Source: Propionispora vibrioides
Lineage (GTDB): Bacteria; Bacillota; Negativicutes; Propionisporales; Propionisporaceae
Length of the DNA stretch: 64,000 nt
Direction: 5' to 3'
Assembly (NCBI RefSeq): GCF_900110485.1
Contig: NZ_FODY01000005.1
Location: 15,093 to 79,092, forward strand
In this document: piece after piece, positions 4,842 through 40,797 of the stretch
How the letters are laid out: each line of letters begins with the position of its first letter
How positions within the stretch are numbered: the stretch's first letter is position 1
Translations under genes and position numbers: made by a program
Notes under the pieces: generated by a model
Databases searched by the model: none
Seen by the model: only the letters and a program-made list of their open reading frames with translations
Told to the model about the DNA's origin: nothing

Positions 4842-4984
4842 AAACCGTTGATTTAATGAGCTTGTCGGCCCGGCGAGAGATTTTGGGGCTGGCAAGGAAG
4901 TAAAACCGTAGGAATAGCGGTCCCTATTCAAGATTTTGCTGACGCAGCCAGACGGATACGCAGTGTGAATAAATCAGTGGTTCC
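4842..4984. repeat. Family I MITE-like element, copy 2
   Basis: It starts one base after the stop codon of the Na/Pi gene with AAACCGTTGATTTAATGAGC and ends with AAATCAGTGGTTCC, its inverted counterpart. The interior GGCGAGAGATTTT, CAAGATTTTGCTGACGCAGCCAGAC and CAGTGTGAATAAATC match copies 1 and 4. It also lies just downstream of znuB on the other strand. Confidence 0.75.
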
Positions 4985-5806: not shown

Positions 5807-5842
5807 ACCTTTCACCTCTTTACTGTACCTTGCGTCATTTAA

Positions 5843-5962
5843 AACATAGGATAAACTTGTACGGATTTTTTGTCCCACCAGGCGGAGGAGCCGTGCCTAT
5901 CGGACATAGGTAAGGTGACGACAACAAAGCGGGTGGAAAAAGTTACAAGATTATCCATGTAT
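5843..5962. repeat. Family III inverted-repeat element inside the znuC-znuB gap
   Basis: The ends ACATAGGATAA..TTGTA and TACAA..TTATCCATGT are inverted. The core GGCGGAGGAGCC, CTATCGGACATAG and GTGACGACAAC matches the copies at 9777-9937 and 29859-30017. It lies inside the predicted zur-znuC-znuB transcript. Confidence 0.65.
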
Positions 5963-5968
5963 GTAAGA

Positions 5969-9730: not shown

Positions 9731-9776
9731 TAAACATCACCTATTATCTTGCCCGGCTAGCCGCTAAACATACCCC

Positions 9777-9937
9777 AGTGCTCTGACCGGATCAAAAATT
9801 TGGCTATCTTACGCAGACTTTTCCGCCCTGTGCCGTTGTCGTCGCCTTACATATGTTCGATATGTAAGGCTCCTCCGCCTCGCAGTGCGAAAAAATCTCC
9901 GCAATCTAACCTTACATTTTAATCCGGTCAGAGCACT
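9777..9937. repeat. Family III inverted-repeat element
   Basis: Perfect 16-base ends AGTGCTCTGACCGGAT and ATCCGGTCAGAGCACT bound a 161-bp unit. An inner imperfect palindrome CTTACATATGTTCGATATGTAAGG and the core CTCCTCCGCCTCGCAGTGCG recur in the other family III copies. Confidence 0.75.
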
Positions 9938-10045
9938 AGCATAACAGCAAATTAAATCTTATATGTTTTCCAATGATTTATGTTATAATAATTGGGGTAT
10001 AAAACTATGCGGTGATTGTATTTGAAGGAGGTTGTCACACTCAGC

Positions 10046-24954: not shown

Positions 24955-25320
24955 AAAGACTTCCACCCCTGAAAAGGGGCGAAAGCCATACTTCCGCGGT
25001 ACCACCCTAAGTTTATACTCTGCTTCCCTAACGCGGAAGAAACGTCCGGCCTACCAGAATCCACCTTCAGCCCGGATACTCAGGAACGAACTTCTGCCAG
25101 ATGCCCCGGAGCTGCTCTCAATCTACGGCAGCTTCCTCCCTGTATGAAACAGACCTGACATACTCTTTCCGTCATCGCAATTAAAGTCCATCAATGTATG
25201 ATCAATTGTCGGTAAGATAAGTACGCAGCAATAGAACCGGTCGTTACAAACAACTTCCAGAAGAATTCGGCGGTCAACACCTAGACCACACCCTCCCTAT
25301 TTAATGTCGGTATCAGGACT
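24955..25320 (-). promoter_or_regulatory. T-box leader of pheST (Phe)
   Basis: On the minus strand the T-box consensus AGGGTGGTACCGCGG lies at 25008-24994, followed by a terminator hairpin made of CGCCCCTTTTCAGGGGTGG. A candidate UUC (Phe) specifier triplet is at 25236-25234 in CCGGTTCTATT; I located it by eye, not by folding. The leader should raise pheST expression when tRNA-Phe is uncharged. Confidence 0.85.
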
Positions 25321-25357: not shown

Positions 25358-25518
25358 GGAACCGCTGATTTAATGAGCCTGTGGGCCTGACGAGAGATTT
25401 TTTCACCTGGCGGGAAAGCAAAACCGAATGAAAAGCCGGGCTATTTCAAGATTTTGCTGACGCGGTTAGGCTAAAAAGGATCAGTCAGGATGCGCGGTGC
25501 GAATTAATCAATGGTTCC
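25358..25518. repeat. Family I MITE-like element, copy 4 (best-preserved ends)
   Basis: The ends GGAACCGCTGATTTAAT and ATTAATCAATGGTTCC are inverted repeats with two differences, giving a 161-bp unit. Interior blocks match copies 1 and 2. The right end overlaps the last codons of the SpoU methylase gene. Confidence 0.8.
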
Positions 25519-27785: not shown

Positions 27786-29696
27786 TCAATTTTTTTCCCT
27801 GATTTCCTTAAGCAGCTGGGGCACGAACTCCGCTACCGGCTGGCTGCCCAGATCGCCCTGGCCTCTTTTGCGCACGGCAACACTGCTCGTTTCCTGCTCC
27901 TTATCACCAACCACCAGCGTATACGGCACTTTTTGCACCTGAGCTTCACGGATTTTGTAGCCGATTTTTTCATTCCGGTCGTCAATTTCCACCCGGATAT
28001 CCTGCTCCCGCATTTGCTGCGCAACAGCCCGGGCATAAGCGACATGACGGTCGGTAATAGGCAGCAGTTTAACCTGCACCGGCGCTAACCAGGCCGGGAA
28101 GGCTCCGGCATAATGCTCAATCAGAATGCCGATAAACCGCTCCATGCTGCCGTAAGCCACACGGTGAATCATAACCGGACGGTGTTTTTGTCCGTCCTCG
28201 CCGATATAGTTTAGATCAAATTTCTCTGGCAGCAGCATGTCCAGTTGGATGGTGCCGCACTGCCAGGTACGTCCGATGGAATCTTTCAGATGGAAATCTA
28301 TTTTCGGACCGTAAAACGCACCATCGCCAGGATTAATCTTATAATCCATACCGCACTCTTCCAGGGCTTCCTGCAAAGCCTTGGTTGCCACTTCCCAAAT
28401 CGCATCGTCGCCCATTGCCTTTTCCGGTTTGGTGCTCAGCTCAGCGTGATAAGACAGGCCAAAAGTGCTGTATACCTGGTTAAACAAATCAATAACCCCT
28501 TTAATCTCGGTCTTGATCTGCGACGGCAGCATGAAGATATGGGCGTCATCCTGGGTGAAGCTGCGTACCCGCATCAAGCCGTGCAAGGCGCCGGACAGTT
28601 CATGACGGTGCACCAGACCCAGTTCGGCCGTACGCAAGGGTAGGTCACGGTAGCTGTGATGCTGGGTGCGATATACCAAAATACCGCCGGGACAGTTCAT
28701 CGGTTTAACGGCATAGCCTTCGTCATCAATTTGGGTAAAGTACATATTGTCCCGGTAATGATCCCAGTGGCCCGATTGCTGCCATAGCTTCTGACTGAGA
28801 ATAATCGGCGTTTTGATTTCCTGATAGCCGTATTTTACATGCAGCTTACGCCAGAAAGTTTCCAGTTCGTTGCGGATAATCATACCTTTGGGGTGAAAGA
28901 ACGGGAAGCCCGGCCCCTCATCCTGAATGCTAAAGAGGTCCAGTTCACGGCCCAGTTTGCGATGATCCCGTTTAGCGGCTTCTTCCAGCATGGTAAGGTA
29001 GGCGTCCAGTTCGGCTTTTTTCTCAAAGGCCGTTCCGTATATCCGCTGCAGCATTTTACGTTTTTCATCGCCGCGCCAGTAAGCTCCCGCTAACGTTTGC
29101 AGCTTAATCGCTTTGACCTTGCCTGTGGATGCCACGTGGGGGCCGGCACACAGGTCGACAAACTCACCCTGTCGGTATAAAGAAATGACGGCATCTTCCG
29201 GCAGGTCGCGAATCAGTTCCACCTTGTAAGACTCACCTTTTTCCTCAAAGAACCGAACCGCCTCAGCGCGCTCCATTTCCAACCTTTCAATCGGCAGGTC
29301 TTCTTTCACGATGCGCTCCATCTCAGCCTGAATACGGGCTAAATCCTCCGGGGTAAACGTAACGGGCGCATCAAAGTCATAGTAAAAACCGTTGGCAATC
29401 GCCGGACCGATAGCAATCTGCACATCGCTATACAGCCGTTTTACCGCCTGGGCCATAATGTGGGAAGCACTGTGCCGCAAAGCATCTTTCCCTTCCTGAT
29501 CTTCAAACGTCAGAAACTCTATTTTGGCGTCCTTGGTTAGCCGGCGGGCCAGGTCCAATACCTTACCGTCCACCTTCGCCGCCAATGCGGTTTTGGCCAG
29601 GCTGCGGCTGATTGACTGTGCCACTTCTCCCAGTGTCTGGTTGGCTTCCACTTCCCGAATCGAACCGTTGTTTAACTCAATATGAATATGTCCCAT
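27786..29696 (-). CDS. thrS: Threonyl-tRNA synthetase
   Basis: A 636-residue ThrRS. It has an N-terminal TGS domain (1-62), an editing domain with HSASHIMAQAV and the later CAGPHV, a class II core with motif 2 RTAELGLVHRHELSGALHGLMRVRSF-type sequence (zinc ligands in MNCPGG and nearby His), motif 3 VAYGSMERFIGILIEHY, and a C-terminal anticodon-binding domain (KLLPITDRHVAYA). AGGAGG lies before the ATG. It is transcribed from a T-box leader, and infC follows with its own leader. Confidence 0.96.
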   Translation of the reverse strand: MGHIHIELNNGSIREVEANQTLGEVAQSISRSLAKTALAAKVDGKVLDLARRLTKDAKIEFLTFEDQEGKDALRHSASHIMAQAVKRLYSDVQIAIGPAIANGFYYDFDAPVTFTPEDLARIQAEMERIVKEDLPIERLEMERAEAVRFFEEKGESYKVELIRDLPEDAVISLYRQGEFVDLCAGPHVASTGKVKAIKLQTLAGAYWRGDEKRKMLQRIYGTAFEKKAELDAYLTMLEEAAKRDHRKLGRELDLFSIQDEGPGFPFFHPKGMIIRNELETFWRKLHVKYGYQEIKTPIILSQKLWQQSGHWDHYRDNMYFTQIDDEGYAVKPMNCPGGILVYRTQHHSYRDLPLRTAELGLVHRHELSGALHGLMRVRSFTQDDAHIFMLPSQIKTEIKGVIDLFNQVYSTFGLSYHAELSTKPEKAMGDDAIWEVATKALQEALEECGMDYKINPGDGAFYGPKIDFHLKDSIGRTWQCGTIQLDMLLPEKFDLNYIGEDGQKHRPVMIHRVAYGSMERFIGILIEHYAGAFPAWLAPVQVKLLPITDRHVAYARAVAQQMREQDIRVEIDDRNEKIGYKIREAQVQKVPYTLVVGDKEQETSSVAVRKRGQGDLGSQPVAEFVPQLLKEIREKN

Positions 29697-29740: not shown

Positions 29741-30175
29741 AAACTCCCGTCCCACGTAGGGACGGGAGTATACCCGCGGTTCCACCCTGATTAGTTTTAA
29801 AAAAACTCATCTCGTATATGCTATGCTAACGGACATATAACCCGGCCCGGCTTACTTAGTACTTTGCACCCCCTAATTCTGTATCATTCTGGCGGTATAT
29901 TTTTCGCAATACTGCGTTGTCAACGTCTTACATATTTCCGATATGTGCGACGTTTCCGCCTTATCTTGCGAAAAATCTCCTCGCCAGTCTAGCACAGTCT
30001 TAGGGGCTGCAAGGTACTATTCAACCGGACAGTTCAGAGGCGGTAACAATAGGTAGCTACGTTAAAGATGCTTGCAGCCGGTGACATCTTCTCTCTGTAA
30101 CGCCTTGCTTATTGCCATATCCTCGTCATTACTTTTACTTTACTATTATATTCTCTAAATTATAGCTGATCCCTT
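29741..30175 (-). promoter_or_regulatory. T-box leader of thrS, carrying a family III element
   Basis: On the minus strand AGGGTGGAACCGCGG (29788-29774) is the T-box, followed by the terminator ACTCCCGTCCC..GGGACGGGAGT. Stem I with AGAGAGAAGATG lies at the 5' end. ACC triplets suited to Thr are present but I cannot choose the specifier. Between stem I and the antiterminator, 29859-30017 is a long inverted repeat of family III, unusual for a T-box. Confidence 0.85.
29859..30017. repeat. Family III element within the thrS T-box leader
   Basis: The arms GTACTTTGCACCCCCTAA and TTAGGGGCTGCAAGGTAC are inverted. Inner arms TTTTTCGCAATA and TTGCGAAAAAT, and the core CATATTTCCGATATG with GACGTTTCCGCCTT, match other family III units. 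Confidence 0.7.
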
Positions 30176-30183
30176 GCCTGTTG

Positions 30184-31095
30184 TCAATTATCCGGCGTAA
30201 TATTTCCCAAAACATATGGCCGGCAAAGACTGCAGCCCTTGCAGATTGTCACACGGCCCTCAAATATATTTTTGATGATCTCGACCGTATCCTGCGTTTT
30301 TTGCGGGTCGCAGCCATGCAGTACAATCTCTTGCGGTGCCAGGGTGATTAAAGCGGTAACCAGGAGGTCCCCATAATTAATTTCGTCCGCGCTCTGACTG
30401 ATATAGCTCTCGAGGTACTGATTGTGGATGGAATTACCTGCCGTGTCAATGATTTTAAAGACTCCCTCAGGATCGATCACTATGTGCACTTCATCCGCCT
30501 GGGGTTCCTGTATATCGACAAAATAACGCAGTACACGGATGAACTCTTTATATTCCAATTCCATCATGAAGTCCTCTACCACATCATCCACCAGATGGAC
30601 CAGTTCTTCGCGATAATCTTTCAGGCGAAAGTTGATAAATCCTTCCACCACCAATTCGTGATGATGATCCAGATAATCGGTCAGTCTTGACAATATTTGC
30701 TTGCGGCGATCAACCAGGCAGAAATCAATGACATTTGTTTTATTCCCGTTTAATGCTTTCAGGGTGTTCTCATAAACAGCCGTCCGTTCTTCCTCGTTGA
30801 AGTAATGGTAGTTCTGGTTAATGATCTTGCGGATAATATTCTTTTCTTCATCGGCCACAATCAATTCGGAAACAATTTGAGCCACATAATCCTTCAAGAG
30901 CTGCTTGATGCGTTCATAGCTGCGGAAGGATAGCTCACCGTCGACGACATTGCAACCAAGAAAGGTATAATTGCCTTTGCTGGTTTCATCTATCGCGACC
31001 TGAAATCCTTCCTGCGCCAATGCAACACAATCTTTCTGAAGTTTTACCCGAATCTCATCCGTTGCTCCGGTCAAGCCTACAGAAAGCAATTTCAA
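30184..31095 (-). CDS. ytxC: YtxC-like sporulation protein
   Basis: About 303 residues, all-helical and charged, with IRKIINQNYHYFNEEE, VIDFCLVDRRKQIL and a closing CDPQKTQDTVEIIKNIFEGRVTICKGCSLC. It matches the YtxC family found next to thrS in spore formers; the function is unknown. AAGGGAG lies too close to the GTG at 31104, so I prefer TTG 31095. The C-terminal CKGCSLC could bind a metal. Confidence 0.8.
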   Translation of the reverse strand: MKLLSVGLTGATDEIRVKLQKDCVALAQEGFQVAIDETSKGNYTFLGCNVVDGELSFRSYERIKQLLKDYVAQIVSELIVADEEKNIIRKIINQNYHYFNEEERTAVYENTLKALNGNKTNVIDFCLVDRRKQILSRLTDYLDHHHELVVEGFINFRLKDYREELVHLVDDVVEDFMMELEYKEFIRVLRYFVDIQEPQADEVHIVIDPEGVFKIIDTAGNSIHNQYLESYISQSADEINYGDLLVTALITLAPQEIVLHGCDPQKTQDTVEIIKNIFEGRVTICKGCSLCRPYVLGNITPDN

Positions 31096-31239: not shown

Positions 31240-31490
31240 AAAAATGACTTAATGTGAATGTGATGACAGGGATAGTACGTATCGCGTGTTTTGCTCAGAG
31301 AGCCGGGTAAGGTGTGAGCCGGCGCAGGAACCGCTACGGAATGCCACCCTCGAACAGCCTGCGGAAAACTAATAGTAAGCATGGCCGTAGCCTGGCGTTA
31401 ACAGGAAAAAGTGAGCCCCACAGGCTAAACTAGGTGGTACCACGGGAATATTTTCTCGTCCTTTTCAGGACGGGATTTTTTTATTTTATA
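31240..31490 (+). promoter_or_regulatory. T-box leader upstream of Lrp-like regulator and aminotransferase
   Basis: It contains AGAGAGCCGG-type stem I sequence, the T-box AGGTGGTACCACGGG at 31432-31446, and the terminator CGTCCTTTTCAGGACG followed by T-run. The specifier region reads GGAATGCCACC; with one base after GAA the codon would be GCC (Ala), in the other register TGC (Cys). This choice is by eye. It should couple the two genes to charging of that tRNA. Confidence 0.75.
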
Positions 31491-33549: not shown

Positions 33550-33678
33550 TATACCCCTTTTTTCTTTGAATTCCGTTTAGCTTAGAGCTATTTTGCTGTT
33601 TTTTTCTTAAGAATCAATCGGAAAGGATTCCTTACGGTGTCGGCGAATTGTATAGGATATAACAGAAAGGATACAGTG

Positions 33679-37645: not shown

Positions 37646-37669
37646 CAAGGTTTATGGAGCACTAGAGAT

Positions 37670-37816
37670 CTGTAAACTCTAAACCTATAGAATGAATTGC
37701 GAGAGATTTTTCGTCCTGCAAGACGAAGGAGGTGCGCATATCGGGAATACGCAAGCCGACGGCAACTAAGCAGGGCGGAAAGATCTCGTAAGAACACTAA
37801 GAATTAGGGATTACAG
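37670..37816. repeat. Family III element upstream of dxs
   Basis: The ends CTGTAAACTCTAA and the inverted TTAGGGATTACAG. The interior GAGAGATTTTTCG, GCATATCGGGAATACGCAAGCCGACGGCAAC and GCAGGGCGGAAAGATCTC aligns with the 9777 copy in reverse. Together with the possible copy before it, this fills most of the 474-base dxs upstream gap. Confidence 0.65.
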
Positions 37817-37906
37817 ACTACCAGGTAACATAAAGAAATTTTACAGTTCACCTTCCCGCCGGCTCATCCGTATAATAAAGTAAAGACACAATAAGGGGTG
37901 GTCCTG

Positions 37907-38080
37907 TTGGTAATTGATTTTAATGAGCAAAAGTTCCGCAACGAAGTCAAGTCAATGGTTCGTCCTTTTGGCTTAAACAAACATCAAGTGGATGAAGTCA
38001 TACGGCACGCTCTGGCGGCAGTCCGCCGGTCAAGTAAACCGGTTCGCGGCAATCCGGCAATTCCCGGCAAAGAAGAATGA
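37907..38080 (+). CDS. Unknown 57-residue protein
   Basis: TTG start at 37907 with AAGGGGTG six bases upstream. A small basic helical protein (FNEQKFRNEVKSMVRPFGLNKHQVDEVIRHALAAVRRS) with a Pro/Gly tail. It is followed closely by a terminator, which supports a real gene. No family recognised. Confidence 0.55.
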   Translation: MVIDFNEQKFRNEVKSMVRPFGLNKHQVDEVIRHALAAVRRSSKPVRGNPAIPGKEE

Positions 38081-39888: not shown

Positions 39889-40797
39889 TCAACCACCGAT
39901 CATCACACGCAGCCCCTTGGCGGCTCCACTGGCTACATACGGCGCCAACTCGCTTGGGGCCAGCATATTTACAGTAGCCAGGCTATATGCATATACTCTG
40001 CCAAGCTGTTCATACTTATTCCTGCCCAGTGTATGATAAGGCAGCAGATGCACTTCCTTAATCCGATATCGGACAGCCAGGTCAAATATCCCCTCCAACA
40101 CGGCCACCTCATAATTAAAGCCTGGAATTACCGGTGTTCTAATGATAATTTTTTGCGGGTTCTTTTTGGCAAGATAAGCTAGATTGTTAAGAATGACACC
40201 CAGCTCGGCTCCGGTGGTCGCTTTTAATATTTCATCGTTTACGTGTTTTATATCAAAAAGAAACAGGTCGATATAGGGCTCAGCTTCCATCAGCTTTGTC
40301 AAGCCAGTCTGGCCTGTTGTTTCTACCGCCACATGCAGCCGCCCGGCCTTGAGTGCCTTGAGCAGAGTCAAAAAGCCGTCATACCGGGTAAAGGGTTCCC
40401 CGCCGGAAAGGATAACTCCGCCCTGTGAATCTTCATAGTAAGCCCGGTCCTTCTCCACTGTCGCGAGCACCGCCGCAATTTCCATGTTCACACCGGGAAA
40501 ATGTATCGCTTGCTGCGGGCAAAGCTCGCCGCACAAGCGGCAATTGCCGCAAAGGCTTCTGTCAAACACCAGACGATTGTGCTCATTTAAATGAATTGCC
40601 TGCTGTGAACACTGCTTTATACAGATGTGGCATCTGACACATTTTCTTTCATTATACATGAGCTGTTTGCTGCTACCTTGTGACTCCGGATTGGCACACC
40701 AGGGGCAAAACAGCGGACATCCTTGTAGAAAAACCACCGTTCTGATCCCCGGCCCGTCATGGAGGGCAAAACGTTCGATCTCCAGAACGCTTACCAC
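39889..40797 (-). CDS. Glycyl-radical enzyme activating enzyme (radical SAM)
   Basis: About 302 residues. GGAGGAGG supports the GTG start at 40797; an ATG at 40827 overlapping the GRE stop lacks a binding site. The radical SAM motif CxxxCxxC is in FLQGCPLFCPWCANPES. Two extra ferredoxin-like clusters follow (CVRCHICIKQC, CGNCRLCGELCP), as in activases of the CutD/HpdA/PflC type. SAM-derived radical would be used to place the glycyl radical on Gly736 of the adjacent GRE. It is the last gene of the nanE-GRE unit. Confidence 0.9.
   Translation of the reverse strand: MVSVLEIERFALHDGPGIRTVVFLQGCPLFCPWCANPESQGSSKQLMYNERKCVRCHICIKQCSQQAIHLNEHNRLVFDRSLCGNCRLCGELCPQQAIHFPGVNMEIAAVLATVEKDRAYYEDSQGGVILSGGEPFTRYDGFLTLLKALKAGRLHVAVETTGQTGLTKLMEAEPYIDLFLFDIKHVNDEILKATTGAELGVILNNLAYLAKKNPQKIIIRTPVIPGFNYEVAVLEGIFDLAVRYRIKEVHLLPYHTLGRNKYEQLGRVYAYSLATVNMLAPSELAPYVASGAAKGLRVMIGG

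Follow-up and report, generated by a model that had tools for sequence, protein, structure and literature searches.

A putative IS630-mobilised MITE in the stem II loop of the thrS T-box leader of Propionispora vibrioides

How can a T-box leader accommodate a repeat element of some 160 nucleotides placed between the part that reads the anticodon and the hairpin that takes the decision? The leader of the thrS gene of Propionispora vibrioides raises this question, and we analysed it within a window of 64,000 nucleotides (contig NZ_FODY01000005.1, positions 15,093 to 79,092 of the forward strand; all positions given without a locus or contig name are those of the window). Our answer, to which we assign a probability of roughly 0.77, is that an IS630-mobilised MITE of ~161 bp entered a TA dinucleotide in the terminal loop of stem II a long time ago and is tolerated there as an insulated arm.

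The thrS leader and the site of the insertion

The thrS gene, encoding a threonyl-tRNA synthetase of 636 amino acids, is an ORF located at 27786..29696 on the minus strand (TIGR00418, 748 bits); full-length ThrS matches were obtained in 34 of the 40 genomes searched, our own included, and pieces only in the other six. Upstream of the gene, a predicted promoter of the sigma-70 type (TTGACA-17-TATAAT; 30159..30187, minus strand) agrees with the consensus at 12 of 12 positions. The T-box leader including the insert (29755..30138, minus strand) aligns with the full RF00230 model (positions 1-219) at 75.6 bits and an E value of 1.5e-16 and was recovered in the whole-genome search as well. This score lies below the gathering score of 93, which is not attributable to the insert alone, since the insert-free thrS leader of a class relative (L038) scores 76.2 bits; the insert-free leaders of three further relatives score 81.2, 88.5 and 96.1 bits. 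The printed RF00230 alignment omits a block of 163 nt within stem II. Correspondingly, among the 19 T-boxes found in the genome by the Rfam search the thrS T-box spans 384 nt, and the other 18 span 200-272 nt. Two further T-box leaders of normal length are present in the window at 31254-31466 (plus strand) and 24972-25184 (minus strand), the latter below the gathering score. A match to the P31 sRNA was dropped (22.7 bits versus a gathering score of 40).

The leader resembles the threonine class of T-box riboswitches in its alignment over the full model, albeit below the gathering score, a putative ACC specifier, both S-turn strands, stem IIA/B, the T-box sequence and the terminator, and differs from the usual T-box in that the terminal loop of stem II is replaced by a mobile hairpin of 163 nt. 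The putative specifier triplet ACC (Thr; 30042..30044, minus strand) fits the amino acid of the gene and forms part of a TTACC pattern found in seven of the eight thrS leaders compared, L044 being the misfit; we presume its placement from the RF00230 alignment and from the general architecture of T-boxes. The same alignment, together with inspection of the letters and of relatives, assigns the 5′-arm of stem II, CCGGTT, and the 5′-strand of the S-turn, GAA, to 30020..30028 (minus strand), and it likewise assigns the 3′-strand of the S-turn, AGTA, and the 3′-arm of stem II, AGCCGG, to 29847..29856 (minus strand). The antiterminator, AGGGTGGAACCGCGGG ... CCCGTCCCT, occupies 29758..29788 on the minus strand (RF00230 alignment, letters checked) and competes with an intrinsic terminator (29743..29769, minus strand) that consists of an 11-pair stem with 8 G-C pairs followed by a T-rich tail.

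A preliminary description of this DNA had placed a repeat element at 29859-30017 inside the thrS T-box leader and had judged the T-box and terminator to be intact. Its coordinates proved exact, and the T-box sequence, the antiterminator and the terminator (29769-29743) are indeed present. Its further statement that the element separates stem I from the antiterminator by about 160 bases is right as to the length, 161 nt being added to the leader, and gains in precision as to the site, which is the terminal loop of stem II.

In relatives, the order within stem II is stem, GAA, short loop, AGTA, stem, where GAA and AGTA represent the two strands of the S-turn. The S-turn is reported to stabilise the codon-anticodon duplex laterally (PMC7583486) and to be critical for the docking of stem I and stem II (PMC10651847). 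The element sits between GAA (30022-30020) and AGTA (29856-29853), so that both strands survive, and its terminal repeats, UAGUAC/GUACUA, are able to pair beside them. Our stem II parser read 39 of 110 loci, some distant ones wrongly, and counts were therefore restricted to the class loci L029-L058, where 23 of 30 thrS loci were read. Nineteen of these readings, including our own genome, contain [AG]GTA and one (L047) contains TGTA; the 3′-strand of the S-turn is missing in L030, the locus of the sister genome G002, and in L055, and L054 was misread. Leaving aside our own genome and the misread L054, the R1 element described below was present in none of the remaining 21 thrS leaders, and the counter-reading named in the preliminary description, an ordinary stem II or III conserved in all relatives, thus fails; stem II itself is ordinary and conserved among the thrS leaders of relatives. 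The terminal loop comprises ~3-10 nt in many relatives. Longer native distal arms of 34, 35 and 47 nt occur in the thrS leaders of three class relatives, and arms of 47-55 nt were read by a strict parser in three distant thrS leaders.

The R1 family and its mobility

Positions 29859-30017 comprise the element proper (GT...AC, minus strand), and 29857..30019 the element plus the TA pair on either side. The latter stretch matches the R1 family with 145 bits on the minus strand and has the TAGT...ACTA ends common to other copies; it is itself one of the 19 copies from which the R1 covariance model was built. R1 is a dispersed palindrome of ~163 nt. BLAST lists 25 places in the genome, including the thrS copy and its own reverse strand, and the best-scoring other place is 75% identical over 105 nt. 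The covariance model yielded at least 149 matches in our own genome (G000), with lengths close to 163 nt among those listed, at least 128 in G002 and at least 12 in G001, numbers that may include opposite-strand matches of one copy; among the matches listed there was none in G003. In a survey of 150 genomes of the class, run with stricter filters than the own-genome count, R1 matches with an E value of 1e-5 or better were obtained in at least 39 genomes, our own genus included. Within the window, a second copy is located at 9776..9938 (minus strand, 146.9 bits), with an uninterrupted counterpart in G002, a third at 37663..37820 (plus strand, 118.4 bits) and a diverged partial copy at 5838..5967 (plus strand, 77 bits, model positions 16-148). 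None of the R1 copies of the window matched an Rfam family at or above the gathering score.

For the model, 22 places were inspected, 20 aligned (L014 and L020 omitted) and 19 modelled (L018 omitted, as it is nearly identical to L013). In the resulting alignment of 171 columns, 31 of the 43 predicted pairs were changed on both sides in at least one copy. By crude ORF calls, none of the 27 copies with enough flanking sequence lies inside an ORF of 100 or more amino acids. An assembly join is an unlikely source of the insert, because no near-identical twin of the thrS copy was found in the genome. A separate dispersed repeat, similar in look and by eye with another core (GGCGAGAGATTTTTTCGGCTGGC...), is present in the window at 1906-1963, 4849-4906 and 25366-25423.

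R1 copies open with TAGT and close with ACTA. The dinucleotide TA was present at the left end of 33 and at the right end of 36 of 43 copies. Because the copies used for the model had been cut at such ends, the 21 copies not used for it give fairer figures, 15 and 18, respectively; copies L146-L165 were drawn from the upper part of the match list and do not constitute a random sample. In the thrS copy, both ends carry TA, and the outer 20 positions of the terminal inverted repeat contain two mismatches. Moreover, three pairs of tandem copies overlap by exactly 2 bp, namely 37768-37930 and 37929-38091 on contig C12 and 40576-40738 and 40737-40899 on contig C21 of G002, as well as 117142-117304 and 117303-117464 on contig C7 of G000, and therefore have one TA in common. 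In addition, the uninterrupted G002 counterpart of the copy at 9776-9938 reads CATAC-CTA-ACGG, which fits a TA target; one TA pair of this copy has since changed.

The ends of R1 resemble those of IS630-family elements. Such an element of 1217 bp, encoding HTH_32 and DDE_3 domains, is present in the related genome G035, and another of 1173 bp, with its gene in pieces, in G082. In a search that demanded TA at both ends, the ends of these DDE_3 elements were TAGTACTCCATCAA and TAGTGACTCGCCAA, and they agree with the best of the compared R1 copy ends at 13-15 of 16 positions without gaps, as opposed to only 11 of 16 for the IS630 ends of G048. The ends TAGT...ACTA are found on the IS630-family elements at L168:875-2091, L169:1362-2534 and L173:852-2142, the first two being candidate sources of the enzyme that moves R1 MITEs. 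A search for DDE_3 genes found none in G000, G001 or G002, and DDE_3 was present in only four of the 14 other copy-bearing genomes tried. As few copy-bearing genomes, and not our own, contain it, mobility in our own genome is probably past, or else the enzyme is missing from the draft.

Taken together, the TAGT...ACTA ends, the single TA in tandem copies and the similar IS630 ends in two related genomes suggest that R1 is best read as a MITE of the IS630 type with TA target duplication. Correia, ERIC and RUP elements are bacterial MITEs with such a duplication. R1 resembles them in being short, non-coding and of high copy number, in its terminal inverted repeats and the TA at both ends, and in its intergenic position (27 contexts); it differs from them in sequence, forming a family of its own around the conserved core GGCGGAGGA...CGACGACAACG. 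It likewise shares similar terminal repeats with the IS630/Tc1-mariner elements of G035 and G082, but carries no transposase. No paper on the R1 repeat family was found in the literature searched.

Predicted folding and age of the insertion

The preliminary description had offered as one outcome that the element is tolerated as a side hairpin, and had proposed to fold the leader with and without it. We performed this comparison up to the antiterminator, using the predicted empty site as the leader without the element and 150 dinucleotide-shuffled inserts as the control. The helix probabilities with and without the element were identical to three decimals for the antiterminator (0.491/0.491 and 0.827/0.827), for apical stem I (0.831/0.831) and for the base of stem I (0.195/0.195), and nearly so for stem II (0.981/0.988). 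In the predicted fold the element closes into an arm of its own, free of pairs with stem I, stem II or the antiterminator: the mean outside pairing per element base was 3e-8, as compared with a mean of 0.18 and a minimum of 0.0024 for the shuffled inserts. These predictions fit a tolerated side hairpin.

Only 0.7% of the shuffled inserts kept stem II as well as the element does, which indicates that a random insert of the same length would usually wreck stem II and that the palindrome does not. However, the antiterminator was at least as probable in 61-63% of the shuffles, so that the test speaks for stem II alone; for the stem I helices the corresponding proportion was 21-24%. As the base of stem I reaches only 0.195 either way, the predicted fold is to be taken as a rough and poor model of a T-box.

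In the proposed mechanism, the long-ago insertion of the IS630-mobilised MITE (~161 bp) into TA in the terminal loop of stem II would have left the S-turn strands GAA (5′) and AGUA (3′) on either side of the insertion point, both preserved. The terminal inverted repeats are predicted to form a UAGUAC/GUACUA helix adjoining the S-turn, and the element to close on itself. The reading of tRNA-Thr by the T-box would continue, since the S-turn makes the contact with the codon-anticodon duplex and the loop side of stem II extends past the S-turn, and the insertion would therefore be tolerated. The cost would consist in 161 extra nucleotides transcribed ahead of the terminator decision.

The position of the insert, between the anticodon-reading part and the decision hairpin, would equally suit an element that alters the response. 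The delay of 161 nt could give uncharged tRNA more time to bind, or RNase III could cut the hairpin, with the result that thrS is read through more easily or the leader is processed; RNase III cleavage of Correia MITEs in mRNAs is reported in PMC10969869. Yet the longest uninterrupted helix in the element comprises only 11 pairs. Moreover, the hairpin is not unusually stable, as 22 of the 43 copies are more stable and its GC-adjusted rank is 18 of 43. The thrS copy is thus unexceptional among R1 copies, and nothing points to selection for a more stable hairpin in the leader. We consider an altered response possible but rather unlikely.

The insulated arm that we favour would be an old one. The ThrS protein of G002 is 98% identical to our own, and its leader reads GGTTGAA-GCCGG, with neither the element nor the AGTA strand. 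By eye, stem II of this T-box (L030, 1229-1442) is a plain hairpin, GUCCGG-UUGAAG-CCGGAC, that is, a natural T-box without the S-turn latch. Elsewhere, at window position 33610, G002 contains a different insertion of ~180 bp between alignable segments. An exact pre-insertion leader was not found among the thrS leaders read. From the TA duplication the empty site is predicted to be GGTTGAA-TA-AGTA-AGCC, and it has to be deduced in this way because G002, which is without the element, is also without the AGTA strand.

With neither the element nor a longer loop at this site, and with 94.6% and 96.3% identity in the two segments flanking it, G002 could be taken for the ancestral state, the element having inserted recently, after the two species split. 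However, a recent insertion should have a close source, and none was found among the matches listed. The thrS copy is 73% identical to its G002 match over all 163 bases, the other matches of 130 nt or more listed across the 150 genomes are 72-75% identical, and pieces of 71-93 nt reach 79-83%; among the 43 own-genome copies, its distance to the nearest neighbour is the third largest. Likewise, the 3′-strand of the S-turn is kept in 19 of the 23 readings and as TGTA in one more, and beyond G002 only L055 is without it. Finally, the G002 junction exhibits AA microhomology. On the grounds of source identity, S-turn conservation and this junction we discarded the reading that takes G002 for the empty state and the insertion for a recent one, which we regard as improbable. 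The sequences argue instead for an old insertion followed in G002 by a deletion between two AA pairs, which would have removed the element and the S-turn strand together. Alternatively, G002 may have lost its S-turn separately, without any insertion there.

The same loop in other T-boxes

A T-box survey of 17 genomes chosen for their R1 copies gave 359 matches. Four of those listed exceed 350 nt, namely our own thrS leader and one leader each in G082 (396 nt), G048 (417 nt) and G063 (415 nt), and all four have an excess of 150-169 nt in stem II between GAA and AGTA or GGTA. The long T-box of G082 precedes tyrS (TIGR00234), and its insert belongs to the R1 family (120.4 bits). Over 155 nt it shares 91% identity with another R1 copy in G082, which points to a younger R1 copy than that of thrS. 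The tyrS leaders of two congeners of G082 are without insert, reading GGCTGAA-AGTGTGCAGT-AGTA in G035 and GGCTGAA-AGTATATTATT-AGTA in G106; in the tyrS leader stretches of G118, G146 and G048 no T-box match was obtained. The stem II inserts of G048 and G063 (L201 and L202), which are 78% alike over 111 nt, represent a second dispersed family with the core TTGCGCCGCGCCGCGTAC...GTACGCAAGCAAGCAA and with at least 42 matches in G048, at least 49 in G063 and at least two in our own genome. The gene after the G063 T-box resembles PanS/BASS transporters, though below the cut-offs and on partial sequence.

Folding supports insulation more weakly in these three leaders than in thrS. The tyrS insert of G082 has a predicted outside pairing of 0.029, and in 20% of 60 shuffles the T-box is disturbed to the same or a lesser degree. 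Relative to a short loop, the remaining pairs change by 35% in the G048 leader, where 30 shuffles gave a mean of 42% and a minimum of 11%, and by 16% in the G063 leader, which is below all 30 shuffles (minimum 20%). The bias towards stem II may in part reflect ascertainment, because large inserts elsewhere may lower the score and escape the Rfam search. R1 elements were also observed near T-boxes outside stem II. In a second leader of our own genome, an element lies between a promoter-like sequence and stem I (L199:165-328, contig C33 of G000); the protein encoded downstream starts CysE-like by eye, and a stretch of 701 bp is 96% identical in G002 (L198, contig C35). In other genomes, R1 elements lie 5 bp upstream (L204:253-414), ~130 bp downstream (L201:202-364) and ~145 bp upstream (L200:1061-1223) of T-boxes.

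That the thrS arm is a native, lineage-specific extension of stem II merely resembling the repeats is scarcely credible, and the copy number and common ends largely refute it. A length of ~10 to 200 nt is given for the stem II region (PMC7583486), and other thrS leaders do have distal arms (34-47 nt in three class relatives, 47-55 nt in three distant ones), but the ends and the length of this arm are common to dispersed copies, none of the 21 other thrS leaders read contains it, and the corresponding tyrS loop contains the younger R1 copy that is 91% identical over 155 nt to a copy elsewhere in that genome.

In the literature searched, which was short on subscription journals, we found no description of a MITE within stem II of a T-box. 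According to PMC10969869, potential T-box riboswitch motifs reside in the BOX elements of Streptococcus pneumoniae, so that BOX and R1 are alike as dispersed repeats linked with T-boxes; in BOX the T-box motif is said to lie in the repeat, whereas in thrS the repeat lies in the T-box of a synthetase gene.

Beyond the preliminary description, the analysis thus adds the S-turn loop as the site, the probable identity of the element as an IS630-type MITE, and the same loop struck in other T-boxes. The loop of stem II would seem free to carry cargo, and in the T-boxes of this class it looks like a safe harbour used repeatedly by mobile hairpins. A more far-reaching view is speculative and in our opinion doubtful: T-box stem II would be a recurrent landing site, some lineage-specific arms would be domesticated or decaying transposable elements, the thrS arm would retune the switch as a built-in delay or as a site of processing, and the loss in the sister genome would have taken the S-turn and left a T-box without its latch.

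The stem II insertions described here have a source in dispersed, mobile-looking hairpins, found in four leaders of four genomes and always between the strands of the S-turn. The origin of stem II arms thereby becomes directly testable, and natural pairs with and without an insert are at hand in the tyrS leaders of G082 versus G035 and G106 and in the thrS leaders of G000 versus G002. The loop of stem II marks a spot in a riboswitch that has room for a large RNA insert.
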